From contig JARLGV010000059.1 in the NCBI GenBank assembly GCA_031292555.1, positions 1 through 61,160 of the forward strand: a DNA stretch of 61,160 nucleotides. The letters are read 5' to 3'. The DNA comes from Fimbriimonas sp. (GTDB lineage: Bacteria; Armatimonadota; Fimbriimonadia; Fimbriimonadales; Fimbriimonadaceae). Shown here piece by piece: positions 33,621 to 40,288 of the stretch; positions within the stretch are counted from its first letter, which is position 1; the number at the start of each line of letters is the position of its first letter. The notes under the pieces were generated by a model, which had not been told where the DNA came from, did not search any database, and saw only the letters and a list, made by a program, of their open reading frames with translations. The position numbers and the translations under genes were made by a program.

Positions 33621-35264
33621 TCAGGGCTTCCCGTCTGGACCCGGACTGATGACCGTTTTGGTCGTCCCAGGACGCACGAAGTTTCGACGAGTGATGAGAT
33701 CGGTCAAATTACCGATGCTCAGTCTCAGTCCAAACGCATACTCATTTGGATACTCCCGATATAGGATGAACGGTTCGAAGCAGCCGACAACCTGAGAGAA
33801 CGTGTATTCGTGATCGAACCATCCGAGGCGCGGATCGTATTTGGACATGAAGGTGAATTTCGTCGGCCCAAGATCAAAGTCGCCACGAAAGACGCAGCCG
33901 TTGATCGAGGCGAGCCGATCGAACTGATAGTCGGGCCTTCCCGAATCCGCCGCCAGATACCCGGCCGCCGACAACCTGACCTGCTTAACGGGCTCGTAGG
34001 CAAGCCCGGTAATCAGCCTAGCCCACGCAAAATCGCGAGGTCCGAGAAACCCTTTCATGTCGATACGAGCAAGAGTGCGAATATCTCGGCTGATCTTGAC
34101 GGCTGGAAGGCCAAGCGCATCGTTCACGATCGCCCTTGCCTCGACGTTCTGATCGAGTTGCTTGATCGTCTGGAGACGCGTTTGGCTCATATACGCGAAT
34201 TTGCCGAGCGGTCCACCTAGATCGAAAACCACCTCGGCCGGCTGATCGTAAAGGAGATCGATGCGCTGTCCGGTAGGCGACACGTTCCAGTTCGAATCGA
34301 ATGCAAGTGACTTTCGCGCATATCGAAGGTTGCCGTCTTCCTGGCTTGGCGATGAGACATGGATGCTCTCGAAATACCCCTCGCTGAACATCTCGCCGAA
34401 GTTCGAAGTCGGCGTAAGGTAAGTCGTCGACTTCTCGTCCGGCAAGTATGTGTGCGTCAAGCTCCCTCCATAGGAAGGAAATGACCCCGGAAAGGCGCCG
34501 AGGGCGAACGCAAAGTCCGTCGAGTGGTCGACGAAGAGCCCCCCTTGCCAGTTAGTTCCGAATTGGCCGTTCGAAAATGCAAGCGACGGAAGGCCCAATC
34601 CCTCGCTTCGAGGGTCCAGATTAAACGTACGATCCGGAAAAGTGCCGATGAGGTGACCAAAGAGATATAGGCTCGGCCTGGTCAGTTTGCCGTACTTGCC
34701 CGGAAAGAGCGTGACTTTCCTGGCGCGCACCTCGTACCAAGGTGGTGTCGCGCGGGAAGTGGTTCCACGGGCGTTGAGCATCACCCACAGCTTTGGCGCA
34801 ATGTCCAGCCTGTCTACCGTCAAATGAGCTGACCCGACTCGGACCTCTCCGTGATTGATCACGCTTCGGCGGGATTCCTTGTTCCACCAGACCTCGATGT
34901 TGTCAGAGTCCACCGTTCCGGTCGGGTCGTCCACGTGAACGTGGCCCTTCGCGCTCGCGTGCTGTCCCTTCTGGTCCACTGTCACGGTGTCGGCGTGGAT
35001 GGTGGTTTCCTCGTACTTGACGATGACCCCGTTCGTAAAGGTGGCAACGTTCGACTTCGCGTTGATTAGGACGTTCCGAAAAGTGAAGGTAACGCCGTCC
35101 ACCGATTGCGAAGAGTAGATCGGCACACCCGTTTGCTGAATCGGCGGCATGGCGGCCGACGGCAACAATGGCCACAGGCAGGGCATAGAGCAGCCAGTGT
35201 ACCGCTGCAAACGACGCCACCATCCGGCTCGTGCTACCGGTTTTGAGTTTTCCGCTGACCGCAT
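33621..35264 (-). CDS. LptD/OstA-like outer-membrane protein, uncertain N-terminus
   Basis: About 547 residues. An N-terminal OstA/LptA-like beta-jellyroll region (VTFTFRNVLINAKSNVATF, IHADTVTVDQKGQHASAKGHVHVDD) is followed by a long beta-rich barrel-like part (YLFGHLIGTFPDRTF, SLAFSNGQFGTNW). LptD places lipopolysaccharide in the outer membrane; this may be a distant relative. The N-terminus is unclear. In this frame 35264-35150 gives a poor hydrophobic core, whereas the neighbouring minus-strand frame encodes a better one (WLLYALPVAIVAVG) that would need a one-base shift near 35150. No Shine-Dalgarno decides the start. Confidence 0.7.
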   Translation of the reverse strand: MRSAENSKPVARAGWWRRLQRYTGCSMPCLWPLLPSAAMPPIQQTGVPIYSSQSVDGVTFTFRNVLINAKSNVATFTNGVIVKYEETTIHADTVTVDQKGQHASAKGHVHVDDPTGTVDSDNIEVWWNKESRRSVINHGEVRVGSAHLTVDRLDIAPKLWVMLNARGTTSRATPPWYEVRARKVTLFPGKYGKLTRPSLYLFGHLIGTFPDRTFNLDPRSEGLGLPSLAFSNGQFGTNWQGGLFVDHSTDFAFALGAFPGSFPSYGGSLTHTYLPDEKSTTYLTPTSNFGEMFSEGYFESIHVSSPSQEDGNLRYARKSLAFDSNWNVSPTGQRIDLLYDQPAEVVFDLGGPLGKFAYMSQTRLQTIKQLDQNVEARAIVNDALGLPAVKISRDIRTLARIDMKGFLGPRDFAWARLITGLAYEPVKQVRLSAAGYLAADSGRPDYQFDRLASINGCVFRGDFDLGPTKFTFMSKYDPRLGWFDHEYTFSQVVGCFEPFILYREYPNEYAFGLRLSIGNLTDLITRRNFVRPGTTKTVISPGPDGKP

Positions 35265-35380
35265 TCCAGTGATACATCGATTCAGTTCTGGAAATTCCTT
35301 GGCTCGAACGTTTGCCCATTGACGACCCGTCGTGTACCATGTATTTAGCCAGGTTCGTAACAAGACCGGTGGGTGTGCCT

Positions 35381-35923
35381 ATGACATATTCGATTGGAGC
35401 TGAAGCAGCCGCGCAGGAAAGACAATGGGTCGGCCGGTGCCGGCTGGGTGATGAAGCCGCGCTTGGCTTCCTGATCGCTCGACACAGAAATCGACTGATT
35501 CGCACGGCCACGAACCTGCTCAGAGATCGGCACGAGGCAGAGGACGTGGCCCAAGAGGCTTTTCTCAAGGCCTTTCGCGAGATCGCGAAGTTGCGAGACG
35601 ACCGAGCATTCTCCGGATATCTCTATCGGATCTGCGTACGTCTGTGCATGGATCGGTTACGGCTGAAGAGAGCCGAACTCGTCGAATTCGATTCCGCGCA
35701 GCCACACTGCGGCGGAGCCGTGGAGAACCGAGTCGTCATCGAAAAGCTCTTAAGCCAGTTGCCTGCGGAATTGCGAACCACACTCGTTCTGCGTGAAATG
35801 GAGCAGCTCAGCTACGAAGAAGTCGCCGAGGTGATGCAGGTTCCAATCGGCACCGTACGCTCCCGTCTTCATACTGCCCGTGAGCGCTTCCGGAAGCTCT
35901 GGATCGAGGCGGTGGGTGAATGA
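35381..35923 (+). CDS. ECF-family RNA polymerase sigma factor
   Basis: About 180 residues from the ATG at 35381 (GGTGGG seven bases upstream); in-frame starts at 35312 and 35339 would add unmatched residues. Region 2 is clear (LLRDRHEAEDVAQEAFLKAF, SGYLYRICVRLCMDRLR) and region 4 contains the helix-turn-helix (LSYEEVAEVMQVPIGTVRSRL). Its stop overlaps the anti-sigma start (ATGA). It probably directs polymerase to an envelope or stress regulon, controlled by the next gene. It is divergent from the LptD-like gene, which may be a target. Confidence 0.93.
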   Translation: MTYSIGAEAAAQERQWVGRCRLGDEAALGFLIARHRNRLIRTATNLLRDRHEAEDVAQEAFLKAFREIAKLRDDRAFSGYLYRICVRLCMDRLRLKRAELVEFDSAQPHCGGAVENRVVIEKLLSQLPAELRTTLVLREMEQLSYEEVAEVMQVPIGTVRSRLHTARERFRKLWIEAVGE

Positions 35924-36360
35924 ATGTTCGCCTCTTCGGCTGCAAGAAGTTCATTCGACTTTCGAATGAGCAAGCCGATAGATCCTTGTCCGTACCCGAA
36001 GAGCGGTTTCTGGACAAGCACCGAAGGGTGTGTTCCGAATGCCGGAAGGCCGAGGTTTCCGCAAGCTACGCCTTGAACATGCTTCGACTGGCGACCCTCG
36101 AACCGGAGGTTGCACCGATGTTCGAAGATCGAGTGCTACGAAGGCTTAAGGTGCAACAGGTCAAGGAAAGCTTGAATTATTGGTCTCCTGCACTTCTTGG
36201 CGCAGGCCTCGCTTGCGCGGTAATCTTCGTGACTCTTCACTTGGCCACCGAGCCGGGACAGGCACAGCGCGCCAAACTTCCTTTAGCGCAATCCAAGAAC
36301 TCTGCACCATCGAGGATTTCGCCTCGGCTGGAGTTGAATCACCCTCCGATTCTGAGATGA
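35920..36360 (+). CDS. Zinc-binding anti-sigma factor, single-pass membrane protein
   Basis: This 146-residue protein has the ZAS motif H-x3-C-x2-C (H34, C38, C41 in HRRVCSEC) in its N-terminal cytosolic part and one membrane segment (about 87-109, SPALLGAGLACAVIFVTLHLA). It should hold the ECF sigma factor inactive until a signal acts. The ATG overlaps the sigma stop, and its own TGA overlaps the next ATG. The short exported tail is Lys/Pro-rich. Confidence 0.85.
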   Translation: MNVRLFGCKKFIRLSNEQADRSLSVPEERFLDKHRRVCSECRKAEVSASYALNMLRLATLEPEVAPMFEDRVLRRLKVQQVKESLNYWSPALLGAGLACAVIFVTLHLATEPGQAQRAKLPLAQSKNSAPSRISPRLELNHPPILR

Positions 36361-37907
36361 CTTCGGTCGGCCGGGCTTTCTTGGGCGCACTTCTTGGCGC
36401 CCTGTTGACCTTGTGCATTCATCCAGCGTCACGGCCGTTTATGATCGGCCTTTGTTGGCGCATTCCCCCATCGGTTCTCCTTGATAGCGTCGATGCGAAC
36501 GCAATGACCCTCCCCGAACCGAGTTCTCTGGCGCAGGCGAGTCTTTGGGAACAGCTTGCCGCCACTCGGATCAGGAACTTCGAGAAACTGTCCAACAACG
36601 AATGGAAGAGCCTAATAGCGATTGCGGGGGCGGCGCAAGGACGAGACCCGACCAACGCCTTTTGGCCCCAAATTCAAGCGGTGCTTTTCGACGATCGAGG
36701 AGACACGCCTGCCGCCGTAAAGGCCTGGATCGCCGCAGCCAAATGTTCAACTTGGAACGACTACCAGACCGCTAGGCTTTTAAACGCCCGAGAAAGGCTA
36801 AAGCAAATCAGTGGAACAAAAGCGTCCTGGCAGTTGGCATTTCTGTATTACGCTAGGTCCGATGATGTGGCGTCTTGCCTGGAGCGATTAACGAAGCATC
36901 TGCTTCAGAACCTTCCCGACAACACCGCCGATAGCCTTGAGCTGAGGTTCGCGACGCTTCTGAACGGAGACCTAATTCGCAGATACGCGCGCTCGACCAA
37001 AACGAACGTCGACGCGATGAACATTGTGGAGTTGGCCACTTTTCCCTCCAATCTTCTGGCAACAAACGTTACTCCGCGCCTCGTCCATAGCGCCCACATC
37101 GAGATCCTGTCCAACTTCCGGACGATCCTTCACCGCCAGGACTATTGCGATGTGGCCAAGCGGATCTTCTCGAACTGCGAGTCTTGGCGGGCCTTTACCG
37201 TGCGGGATACCAACGACGAGGACGTAGCCCAGTACTCTGCGGTTTCGGTCTTGGCCGCCTCGGTTGCCGGAGCCTTCATGGTGCTATCAGCGCTTGGAGT
37301 CCTAATATGGACGATCGGGAAGTTCGTCGAGTGGCGCCTTTCTCGATTCAAGGAGATCAAGTGGCAAGTGGCGGTCGCCATTGGAATTCTGCTCGGCTCG
37401 CTAGTCTATGCCCTCACGCAGTACGTGCCAGCTTCTTTCGTATTGGCGCTTTGCGCGGCATTTCTAACGGTGGCGCCCGATCGCTCCCGAAAGGCGCGTC
37501 CAACTGACCTCGGGCCGCTCTTCGTTTTTATGGCGATTGTTCTTGGAATCGCATGCTCGGCCCTCCTTGCGACCTTTTTCGTGATGACGACCGCCGAATC
37601 AATTGTCATCCTGCCCAATGTAGGCGTGCCTCCTGACTATCTGGAGAAGCCAGTTTTAGCCGGGCTGTCAGCCGTAATATTTGGACTCGTCTTGCTGATC
37701 GCTCCGTTTTGGGCGATTGCCCACCGCGTAGGTACTCCCCATGTGTTAGGATTGATCCTGACCAAATTCGGGGCTTTTATCTTTGTGAGCTGCCTGACAC
37801 TAAGCGTTATTCTTGGGCCCCTCGCCGTGTACGCCGATCTTCAGGTCGAACATGTGCTGTTCCAATTCCTGACGAATGAACCCCTGCACTACTATGTGAT
37901 TCAATGA
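36357..37907 (+). CDS. Polytopic membrane protein of the sigma/anti-sigma operon
   Basis: This 516-residue protein starts at the ATG that overlaps the anti-sigma stop; the frame extends further upstream but without support. One N-terminal membrane segment (about 8-24) is followed by a helical soluble part of about 230 residues with TPR-like spacing (LWEQLAATRIRNFEKL, LNARERLKQI). Six further membrane segments fill the C-terminal half (SVLAASVAGAFMVLSALG, IGILLGSLVYAL, FVFMAIVLGIACSALLA and others). I do not recognise the family. Its position suggests a sensor or a partner for the sigma/anti-sigma pair. The glnD ATG overlaps its stop. Confidence 0.65.
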   Translation: MTSVGRAFLGALLGALLTLCIHPASRPFMIGLCWRIPPSVLLDSVDANAMTLPEPSSLAQASLWEQLAATRIRNFEKLSNNEWKSLIAIAGAAQGRDPTNAFWPQIQAVLFDDRGDTPAAVKAWIAAAKCSTWNDYQTARLLNARERLKQISGTKASWQLAFLYYARSDDVASCLERLTKHLLQNLPDNTADSLELRFATLLNGDLIRRYARSTKTNVDAMNIVELATFPSNLLATNVTPRLVHSAHIEILSNFRTILHRQDYCDVAKRIFSNCESWRAFTVRDTNDEDVAQYSAVSVLAASVAGAFMVLSALGVLIWTIGKFVEWRLSRFKEIKWQVAVAIGILLGSLVYALTQYVPASFVLALCAAFLTVAPDRSRKARPTDLGPLFVFMAIVLGIACSALLATFFVMTTAESIVILPNVGVPPDYLEKPVLAGLSAVIFGLVLLIAPFWAIAHRVGTPHVLGLILTKFGAFIFVSCLTLSVILGPLAVYADLQVEHVLFQFLTNEPLHYYVIQ

Positions 37908-40288
37908 CCGATTCGACTCGAGTGAAGATCCTCGCGCTTGCCGCTGAACGTAAAGACCACTTGGTGGCCCTGGCTGCTCGTCCGGGTGGGCTGACTTGGT
38001 GTATCCAGCAGACCCTGATCGCAGACAAGGTCGTGCAAACGCTGCATGAGGATGCAGTGGCCAACCACGTGGACCTGCCGCCATTCTCACTCATCGCTAC
38101 CGGCGGGTATGGCCGACGAGAGATGTCTCCCTACTCCGACATCGACATCACGGTTGTGCCTTCCGACGAAGCCTCGCCGATTCTCGACTCAGCTATCAGG
38201 CTGTTGTTTCAAGATCTCCATTGGGCTTTCTGCACTGCGCTGAATATGGATGTGGGGTACGCCTACCGGCTTATTTCGGATGCGCCAGGTCTGGACGACA
38301 AGACCCAGACCGGACTCATGGACATGCGTCTGGTTGCAGGATCGCACGAGCTTTATCGAGAACTTGAGAAAGCGCTCGTCGACAGCTTTGAAGTCGGCGA
38401 ATTCCTTCTCGCCAAAATCATTGAACGCGAGGAGATGTTTCACAAGTATCACGACACACCTCTCGTCGTCGAACCGCACCTTAAGGACGGAGCGGGTGGC
38501 CTGCGCTGCTTTCACTGCGCCAACTGGCTGCGAGAGGCAATCGGTGAACGAGCTTCGCGGCCCACGCCTGAATACGACAGGATTCTTCGAATTCGAAACC
38601 TGCTTCACCTGAATACCGGCAAGCACCAGGATCTCTTGACCCGCCAGCGCCAGGCCGAGATCGCGGAACAGCTTCACGCAGACGTTCCCACGATGATGGC
38701 TGACGTCGTCCAGTGTGGGATCGCGCTCCACGATCACTACCGCAGCACCCGTGAGAAAGTCGGTGAGTCGCGATTCACCCTAAACAAGGGAGTCGTGGCT
38801 TTTCATGGAGAGGCCAGGCTGGTGGGCAATGCGGATGCAGGAGAAGCCAGCGTCGGAATCGCCCTTGCCACCCAACTCAAACTCCGGGTTGCCGATCTGC
38901 CCGTGTCTGTCAGCAATTCGGTCAGAGGTCCCGCCGTCGTGTTTGCACTTTCGACCGGCGAGCCGACGTTACGAAACCTGGACCGATGCGGCCTTCTCAA
39001 ACAGCTTCTGCCAGAGCTTGACGCCTGCCGAACGCTCGTCCCGATGGACCCCGTTCATGAGTACACCGTTTTCGAACACACGATGCGGGTTGTACGGTAT
39101 TTGGACGGCATCGAATCGAACACGTTCCTGGGCGAGATCAAGGATACCGTCACCGATCTTGAACCGCTCTATCTTGCCGCGCTTCTCCATGACATCGGCA
39201 AAATTGCGCCGGATGAGGATCACAGCATCTTGGGCGCCGAGATGGCTCGTACCGTCTGCGAGAGATGGCAACTCTCGGACCAGGTGCGGGAAACCGTCGA
39301 GTGGCTGGTTCTGGAACACCTCACGATGGCGAGGTTCATCCGAGTTCGAGACATCATGAACCCGAACACGGTGAACGAATTCGCCAACATCGTCGGCGAC
39401 GTCAACCGGCTTTGTCTCCTAACCCTCCTCACCTGGGCGGATGTGAGTGCAGTTGCGGAAGGCACGTGGACCAAGGCCCAAGACACTTTCTTGCGTCAGC
39501 TCTTTGGTCGCACCGAAGCCCGATTCCAGGACGAAGATAGCTTCATGCCGGATCCTGCCGTCTATCGCCAGCGGCTGCTTAGGCAACTCAACAGTCAGAA
39601 GGAAGATGAACAGGCGGTTCAAACCTTTGTTCAGAGCCTCCCCGCTCACTACCTCACCAGCACGCCGTTCGAGCACATCCGTCTCCACCTCGGATTCACC
39701 AAGAAGGCGATCGCCGGAGAACCCACGGTCGAGTTATTCCATCGCTCCGATATGAATGCCACGGAGATTACCGTTTGCACGCTGGACGGCCCAGGACTCC
39801 TAAGCAAGCTGCTCGGGGTCTACTACGCGTTTGATCTGAGCGTGGGCGGTATCAGGGCATGCACGACGATGACCGACCCGCCGGTTGCCCTCGACGTATT
39901 TACGGTTAGCTTCTCTGGACGTCCCGTTCCTTCCGCGACGATGAAGAACGTCACCGCCAGCATCCTCGATGTGATCGAAGGGCGAAAGGAACTCGATGCC
40001 TTGCTCGTCCAACGTGGGAAGGACCCTTCACGGAGCCAGAACATTCTTCGCCATACCTACGTGGAGGGTTCGCCTGGAATTCTGGAAGTCCGCTCGCCCC
40101 GTGGACGTGGCATGCCGTTCCGGTTGTCTCGCCTTATCTCCGCCCTGGGCTGGAATGTAGTGTCGGCTCGCGTGGGTCAGTGGGCGGGAACCGCAACCGC
40201 TGCGTTCTATCTCCTTGGTCCGAATGGATCGACGCTGCGCAAAGAAGACGTCGATCGAGTTTTCGGTGCGATTTCATCCCAGTCCTAG
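37904..40288 (+). CDS. glnD: Bifunctional uridylyltransferase/uridylyl-removing enzyme GlnD
   Basis: GlnD adds or removes UMP on PII proteins in response to glutamine. This 794-residue protein has the nucleotidyltransferase motif GGYGRREMSPYSDID (67-81, with D79 and D81), a PII-uridylyltransferase region, an HD hydrolase domain (EYTVFEHTMR and LLHDIGKIAP) and two C-terminal ACT domains (about 600-670 and 705-790). It is somewhat shorter than proteobacterial GlnD. The ATG overlaps the stop of the membrane protein gene. glnB, glnA and amtB are not in the window, and linkage to an ECF sigma operon is unusual. Confidence 0.93.
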   Translation: MTDSTRVKILALAAERKDHLVALAARPGGLTWCIQQTLIADKVVQTLHEDAVANHVDLPPFSLIATGGYGRREMSPYSDIDITVVPSDEASPILDSAIRLLFQDLHWAFCTALNMDVGYAYRLISDAPGLDDKTQTGLMDMRLVAGSHELYRELEKALVDSFEVGEFLLAKIIEREEMFHKYHDTPLVVEPHLKDGAGGLRCFHCANWLREAIGERASRPTPEYDRILRIRNLLHLNTGKHQDLLTRQRQAEIAEQLHADVPTMMADVVQCGIALHDHYRSTREKVGESRFTLNKGVVAFHGEARLVGNADAGEASVGIALATQLKLRVADLPVSVSNSVRGPAVVFALSTGEPTLRNLDRCGLLKQLLPELDACRTLVPMDPVHEYTVFEHTMRVVRYLDGIESNTFLGEIKDTVTDLEPLYLAALLHDIGKIAPDEDHSILGAEMARTVCERWQLSDQVRETVEWLVLEHLTMARFIRVRDIMNPNTVNEFANIVGDVNRLCLLTLLTWADVSAVAEGTWTKAQDTFLRQLFGRTEARFQDEDSFMPDPAVYRQRLLRQLNSQKEDEQAVQTFVQSLPAHYLTSTPFEHIRLHLGFTKKAIAGEPTVELFHRSDMNATEITVCTLDGPGLLSKLLGVYYAFDLSVGGIRACTTMTDPPVALDVFTVSFSGRPVPSATMKNVTASILDVIEGRKELDALLVQRGKDPSRSQNILRHTYVEGSPGILEVRSPRGRGMPFRLSRLISALGWNVVSARVGQWAGTATAAFYLLGPNGSTLRKEDVDRVFGAISSQS

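Follow-up and report, generated by a model that had tools for sequence, protein, structure and literature searches.

The closest described systems to the locus analyzed here are the ECF sigma factor and anti-sigma factor pairs sigW-rsiW of Bacillus subtilis and rpoE-rseA of Escherichia coli, in which the anti-sigma factor is a class I membrane protein, and the amtB-glnK-glnD operon of the Actinomycetales. ECF promoters carry AAC at -35 and CGT at -10, self-activation of the sigma factor is usual, and soluble anti-sigma factors arise from membrane ones by truncation (PMC8103513). GlnD modifies PII at Tyr51 (PMC3612183). Here we describe a locus from a Fimbriimonas sp. genome in which an ECF sigma gene and an adjacent anti-sigma gene are followed by a gene for a membrane protein and then by glnD. 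A literature search found no report of such an operon.

Four overlapping genes form a conserved operon

The window, that is the whole 61,160-nucleotide stretch of DNA analyzed, is one contig (G000:C115) in a 6.46 Mb, 140-contig genome. Four consecutive open reading frames on its + strand encode an ECF sigma factor (S), an anti-sigma factor (A), a membrane protein (M) and GlnD (D), and their coordinates agreed with the ATGA overlaps that the original prediction had read at every junction (3/3; Table 1). S matched Sigma70_r2 with 60.6 bits and Sigma70_r4_2 with 53.9 bits using Pfam and NCBIfam, and SigH, SigW and RpoE/SigE chains are among its closest relatives of solved structure. A was matched by profile to RsiW (5wuq, E 2.4e-7), by NCBIfam to antisigmaE (E 2.6e-6; 27.1 bits, below its cut-off of 50) and by Pfam to zf-HC2 (16.1 bits, below its cut-off of 22.2), and hydropathy indicated a single TM helix (KD 2.18 at residue 91). 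The predicted pair of an ECF sigma factor and a ZAS anti-sigma factor was upheld by these Pfam and NCBIfam matches, the match of A being weak. The gene divergent from S encodes an LptD/LptA-like outer-membrane protein (LptD_N E 0.0012; 19.5 bits, slightly below the 20.4-bit cut-off), is kept by synteny as the neighbor of S in family f1, and probably has its real start downstream of the listed TTG.

Table 1. Positions of the operon, its parts and the neighboring gene in the window
Feature	Position	Strand	Basis
Divergent LptD/LptA-like outer-membrane protein gene (context, outside the operon)	33621..35363	-	LptD_N, synteny
ECF-type promoter of the operon: -35 GAAC (35306-35309), 18-nt spacer, -10 CGTC (35328-35331)	35306..35331	+	motif
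TGTACCAT, candidate overlapping housekeeping -10 element	35333..35340	+	TAnnAT pattern; putative function
S, ECF sigma factor, 180 aa, regions 2 and 4 only	35381..35923	+	Pfam/NCBIfam
A, anti-sigma factor, 146 aa, RsiW-like zinc anti-sigma domain and one TM helix	35920..36360	+	profile, NCBIfam, hydropathy
ZAS motif HRRVCSEC (H-x3-C-x2-C), A residues 34-41	36019..36042	+	sequence
TM helix of A, ~residues 89-109, overlapping the conserved YWSPAL stretch	36184..36246	+	hydropathy
M, 516-aa membrane protein, TM1, extracytoplasmic TPR-like domain and six TM	36357..37907	+	
TPR-like helical domain of M, ~residues 52-283	36510..37205	+	AF2 model, VIA-align
D, GlnD, PII uridylyltransferase/uridylyl-removing enzyme, 794 aa, start overlapping the M stop	37904..40288	+	
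GlnD nucleotidyltransferase motif GGYGRREMSPYSDID (GG..SDxD type)	38102..38146	+	sequence
GlnD HD domain (uridylyl removal), residues 389-476	39068..39331	+	Pfam HD, 51.6 bits

The S-A-M-D order was found in families f1 and f5 of the Fimbriimonadales, including Fimbriimonas ginsengisoli, as well as in named genome records, and is not unique to this genome, as the original prediction had allowed it might be. Among this genome and 60 relatives, M was present in 37/61 and D in 49/61, a few of the D matches covering the HD domain only. M and D were adjacent at all 28 loci measured with a gap of exactly -4 nt in 22 of them, and the same gap was seen between A and M (21/32 loci) and between S and A (16/37). 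D is ~40% identical in f5, yet the exact 4-nt M-D overlap was kept there. Ribosome-binding potential was strong before A, where 86% of loci reached -4.5 kcal/mol or lower, and low before M (11% of loci) and D (18%) as compared to a background of 36%. M and D thus appear to lack ribosome-binding sites of their own and to be translated by coupling, and coding constraint may lie partly behind the low potential at these two starts. None of 28 loci carried a near-consensus sigma-70 pattern or the ECF pattern within the 300 nt that precede D, in keeping with a single operon behind one ECF-type promoter. No gene in common replaced glnD at GlnD-less loci. Together these data confirmed that the conserved four-gene operon is real.

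An ECF-type promoter precedes the sigma gene

Of 41 homologous regions upstream of S, 28 carried GAAC-N16-20-CGTC, as compared to a mean of 0.83 and a maximum of 4 in dinucleotide shuffles. The spacer was 18 in 24 of them and the motif usually lay 42-75 nt ahead of the S start. This is the sigma factor's own promoter motif that had been proposed upstream of 35381, and it fits the ECF signature and self-activation (PMC8103513), suggesting that S activates its own operon. The motif was absent on the opposite strand, that of the LptD-like gene. Within 24 aligned promoters, 15 carried CGTC-N0-8-TAnnAT (shuffled mean 1.3, maximum 5). The TAnnAT element makes a second, housekeeping transcription possible, and a housekeeping promoter may overlap the ECF -10.

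The same element bears on a neutral-passenger reading of GlnD, in which the overlapping housekeeping-type -10 would drive constitutive expression of the operon and the arrangement would have no nitrogen-regulatory meaning. Such a reading would also account for the several lineages that lost D with S-A-M visibly unaffected and for families f2 and f4 and genus g45, in which D is located away from S-A-M. However, both the 4-nt overlap and the ECF motif survived the large divergence of D seen in f5, and without selection the arrangement should have broken up more frequently, which makes this reading unlikely.

Genome-wide, GAACKTT-N14-15-CGTC occurred at 22 sites versus 9 in a reversed control and most of these sites were intragenic. 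Three copies were promoter-like (loci L310, L304 and L307), ahead of a signal peptidase-like gene (G000:C80:12577), a lipoprotein-like gene (C63:5130) and a secreted-protein gene (C77:89948). The signal peptidase site had a partial counterpart in the near relative G019 only. Three promoter-like sites are too few for a genome-wide S regulon to be claimed.

GlnD of the operon co-occurs with PII

D matched Pfam GlnD_UR_UTase with 40.9 bits (cut-off 21) as well as HD (Table 1). TIGR01693 matched with 342.4 bits (E 5.7e-102), below its curated cut-off of 519.4, and D was called a divergent GlnD on its domains and co-occurrence instead of on this cut-off. D residues G67, G68, R71, S78, D79 and D81 were invariant in alignment A3. 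The GlnD model aligned up to residue 787, and there was no Pfam ACT match at the C-terminus.

D, M and PII were searched for across the order in 113 genomes and co-occurrence was tabulated for the 77 near-complete genomes of f1, f3, f4 and f5, with f2, whose D lies away from any S-A-M found, excluded. The D, M and PII labels were transcribed by hand, and G155 was scored as M-bearing with an M that runs off its contig. Most genomes are metagenome assemblies, and absences are uncertain in the incomplete ones. PII was present in 56/56 D-bearing near-complete genomes and D in 0/13 PII-less ones (Fisher p 1.1e-9, without phylogeny correction). When T-loops were read, PII with Tyr51 was present in 39 of 40 sampled D-bearing genomes, and in G009 (89% complete, 440 contigs) D was present and only a divergent PII was seen, with no Tyr51 PII. 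Six D-less genomes with PII were also read (G001, G002, G003, G010, G015 and G018), and in each of them the sole PII was without Tyr51. G144 and G038, which carry M and a PII match (weak in G038) and are D-less, lay outside the T-loop-read set. By these patterns GlnD here evolves like a real PII-modifying enzyme. GlnD and PII constitute a natural experiment in which, when GlnD is absent, PII is either absent or, in the six genomes read, without the modified tyrosine.

The Fimbriimonas genome itself has four PII genes (L150-L153), one of which (L152) is divergent with no tyrosine at position 51. Its PII and amtB genes are on contigs other than that of the operon.

The original prediction suggested that the sigma module senses or adjusts nitrogen status. 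As a nitrogen regulator, S would respond to nitrogen, GlnD would serve as effector or sensor and M would relay signals to GlnD, a reading with which the tight and conserved M-D coupling agrees. However, GAAC-N18-CGTC, which had been expected at PII genes, did not occur at any of this genome's four PII loci, and regulation of PII by S was rejected on that ground. S-A-M also outlives PII: of the 21 near-complete genomes that lack D, 13 retained M, and 11 of these 13 S-A-M-bearing genomes were PII-less. The GAAC/CGTC promoter was likewise kept ahead of S in GlnD-less G026, G028, G029 and G035, and D was kept without M in G006. A nitrogen role for S is hypothetical, and the nitrogen-regulator reading is quite improbable. 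The distribution of M, D and PII argues against the proposal that M reports envelope state to GlnD, and M-to-GlnD signalling as a conserved function was rejected.

M accompanies the membrane segment of the anti-sigma factor

A TM-like hydrophobic segment was detected in A in 34/34 M-bearing loci. At 6/6 M-less loci (G001, G002, G003, G006, G010 and G018), A was a protein of 79-95 aa that kept the zinc motif and was without the TM. In a tree of the neighboring gene, for glycogen-debranching enzyme, the M-less genomes sampled (G002, G003, G006 and G018) clustered with support of 88/90 and G006, in which D is still present, branched first among the M-less genomes. M-less sigma factors sat on long branches in the sigma tree. 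The grouping of the M-less genomes, together with D still present in G006, suggests that M and the A helix were lost together, seemingly once, ahead of D. The loss is confined to one clade and counts as one event, and the co-occurrence tests were not corrected for phylogeny. Judged from these distributions, M belongs with the anti-sigma factor and not with GlnD.

The zinc motif was missing from A in G011, G020, G022, G024, G026, G029, G033, G034, G035 and G038. In zinc-less A proteins the N-terminal anti-sigma domain was often mostly gone and the juxtamembrane stretch and TM were kept. G003 contained several short orphan anti-sigma genes (L348, L104) and no recognizable sigma gene at the syntenic site.

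M is predicted to combine seven membrane helices with a TPR-like domain

M matched no Pfam or NCBIfam family. Its AlphaFold2 model, built from 18 sequences, was all-helical with a pLDDT of 88.6. Structural comparison of residues ~52-215 using VIA-align returned TPR proteins as top matches (Z up to 9.3), possibly reflecting a common helical arrangement, and Pfam TPR models matched only single members of the 34 M proteins, weakly. Foldseek with the whole M model returned no match with E below 0.001. A topology of seven TM helices, N-in and C-out with the soluble domain outside, agreed with hydropathy and with charge, the charge signal being weak. Both the model and the hydropathy profile fit the seven helices and soluble helical domain originally described for M.

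Remote M-like proteins, often of ~600-700 aa, were found phylum-wide in many genomes, some of which carry multiple copies. Among 22 remote M-like loci examined, a set counted besides the G038 ortholog, an ECF sigma gene lay just upstream in 7 (L245, L276, L280, L290, L291, L294 and L295), which belong to other Armatimonadota and to paralogues in family f1. In the flanking DNA examined at the other 15, an ECF sigma gene was undetectable.

In Bacillus, the release of sigma factor from RsiW depends on a multi-pass membrane protease. The resemblance of A to RsiW and the way M tracks the TM of A would fit a protease-like M that acts directly on A as a PrsW analogue, not as a sensor or scaffold. No match to membrane protease Pfam families was found in the 34 M proteins at E up to 0.1, however, and the TM segments in M alignment A1 were without invariant catalytic-looking residues, making a PrsW-like role very improbable.

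Discussion

We consider it likely that S-A-M is an envelope-sensing ECF unit to which glnD was attached as the last gene, with GlnD output following the ECF promoter. The zinc anti-sigma domain of A would lie in the cytoplasm and, anchored by one membrane helix, A would hold S. M, as a membrane neighbor of A that exposes its TPR-like domain to the outside, would sense or relay envelope state and thereby free S, and freed S would activate its own operon from the GAAC/CGTC promoter, probably atop basal transcription. GlnD would be an ordinary PII-modifying enzyme encoded by the last gene, with its translation coupled to that of M; its amount would therefore track the sigma module and its activity would still track glutamine. 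The attachment of glnD to S-A-M in f1 and f5 is what would place GlnD output behind the ECF promoter. An envelope signal is the natural guess from the LptD-like neighbor, the predicted extracytoplasmic M domain and the diderm cell plan, described for F. ginsengisoli Gsoil 348 (PMC4072686); the signal carried by M could also be of another kind. The ~10 M-bearing loci at which A is without the zinc motif or most of its N-terminal domain count against this explanation and strain the simple model in which A holds S. Of the original interpretation, the conserved and apparently coupled operon, the ECF promoter and a PII-linked GlnD stood, and M-GlnD signalling and a nitrogen sigma factor fell away.

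A further reading, that an ECF envelope-stress module with a dedicated TPR/seven-helix membrane component directly sets GlnD dosage and couples envelope state to PII modification, is offered tentatively and is somewhat doubtful. The literature searched contained no wiring from an ECF envelope module to GlnD dosage. Should the ECF promoter indeed determine how much GlnD is made, envelope stress would reach nitrogen control through enzyme amount. M may represent a third component of ECF signalling, and its remote relatives occur close to sigma genes in other parts of the Armatimonadota, a phylum in which experimental genetics is scarce. F. ginsengisoli is a cultured strain that has the operon, which makes these proposals testable.

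Like sigW-rsiW and rpoE-rseA, the operon combines an ECF sigma factor consisting of regions 2 and 4 with an adjacent membrane anti-sigma factor bearing an RsiW-type zinc domain and an AAC/CGT-type promoter ahead of the sigma gene. Unlike these pairs, its third gene encodes a TPR-like seven-helix membrane protein and its fourth is glnD, and the anti-sigma zinc domain is gone in some relatives. As in the amtB-glnK-glnD operon of the Actinomycetales (PMC3612183), glnD lies in a conserved operon and the target is Tyr51 of PII, but here glnD accompanies an ECF module and PII and amtB are on other contigs. The short TM-less A proteins of the six M-less genomes resemble soluble anti-sigma factors derived by truncation (PMC8103513) and differ from them in that truncation here coincides with loss of the partner M.
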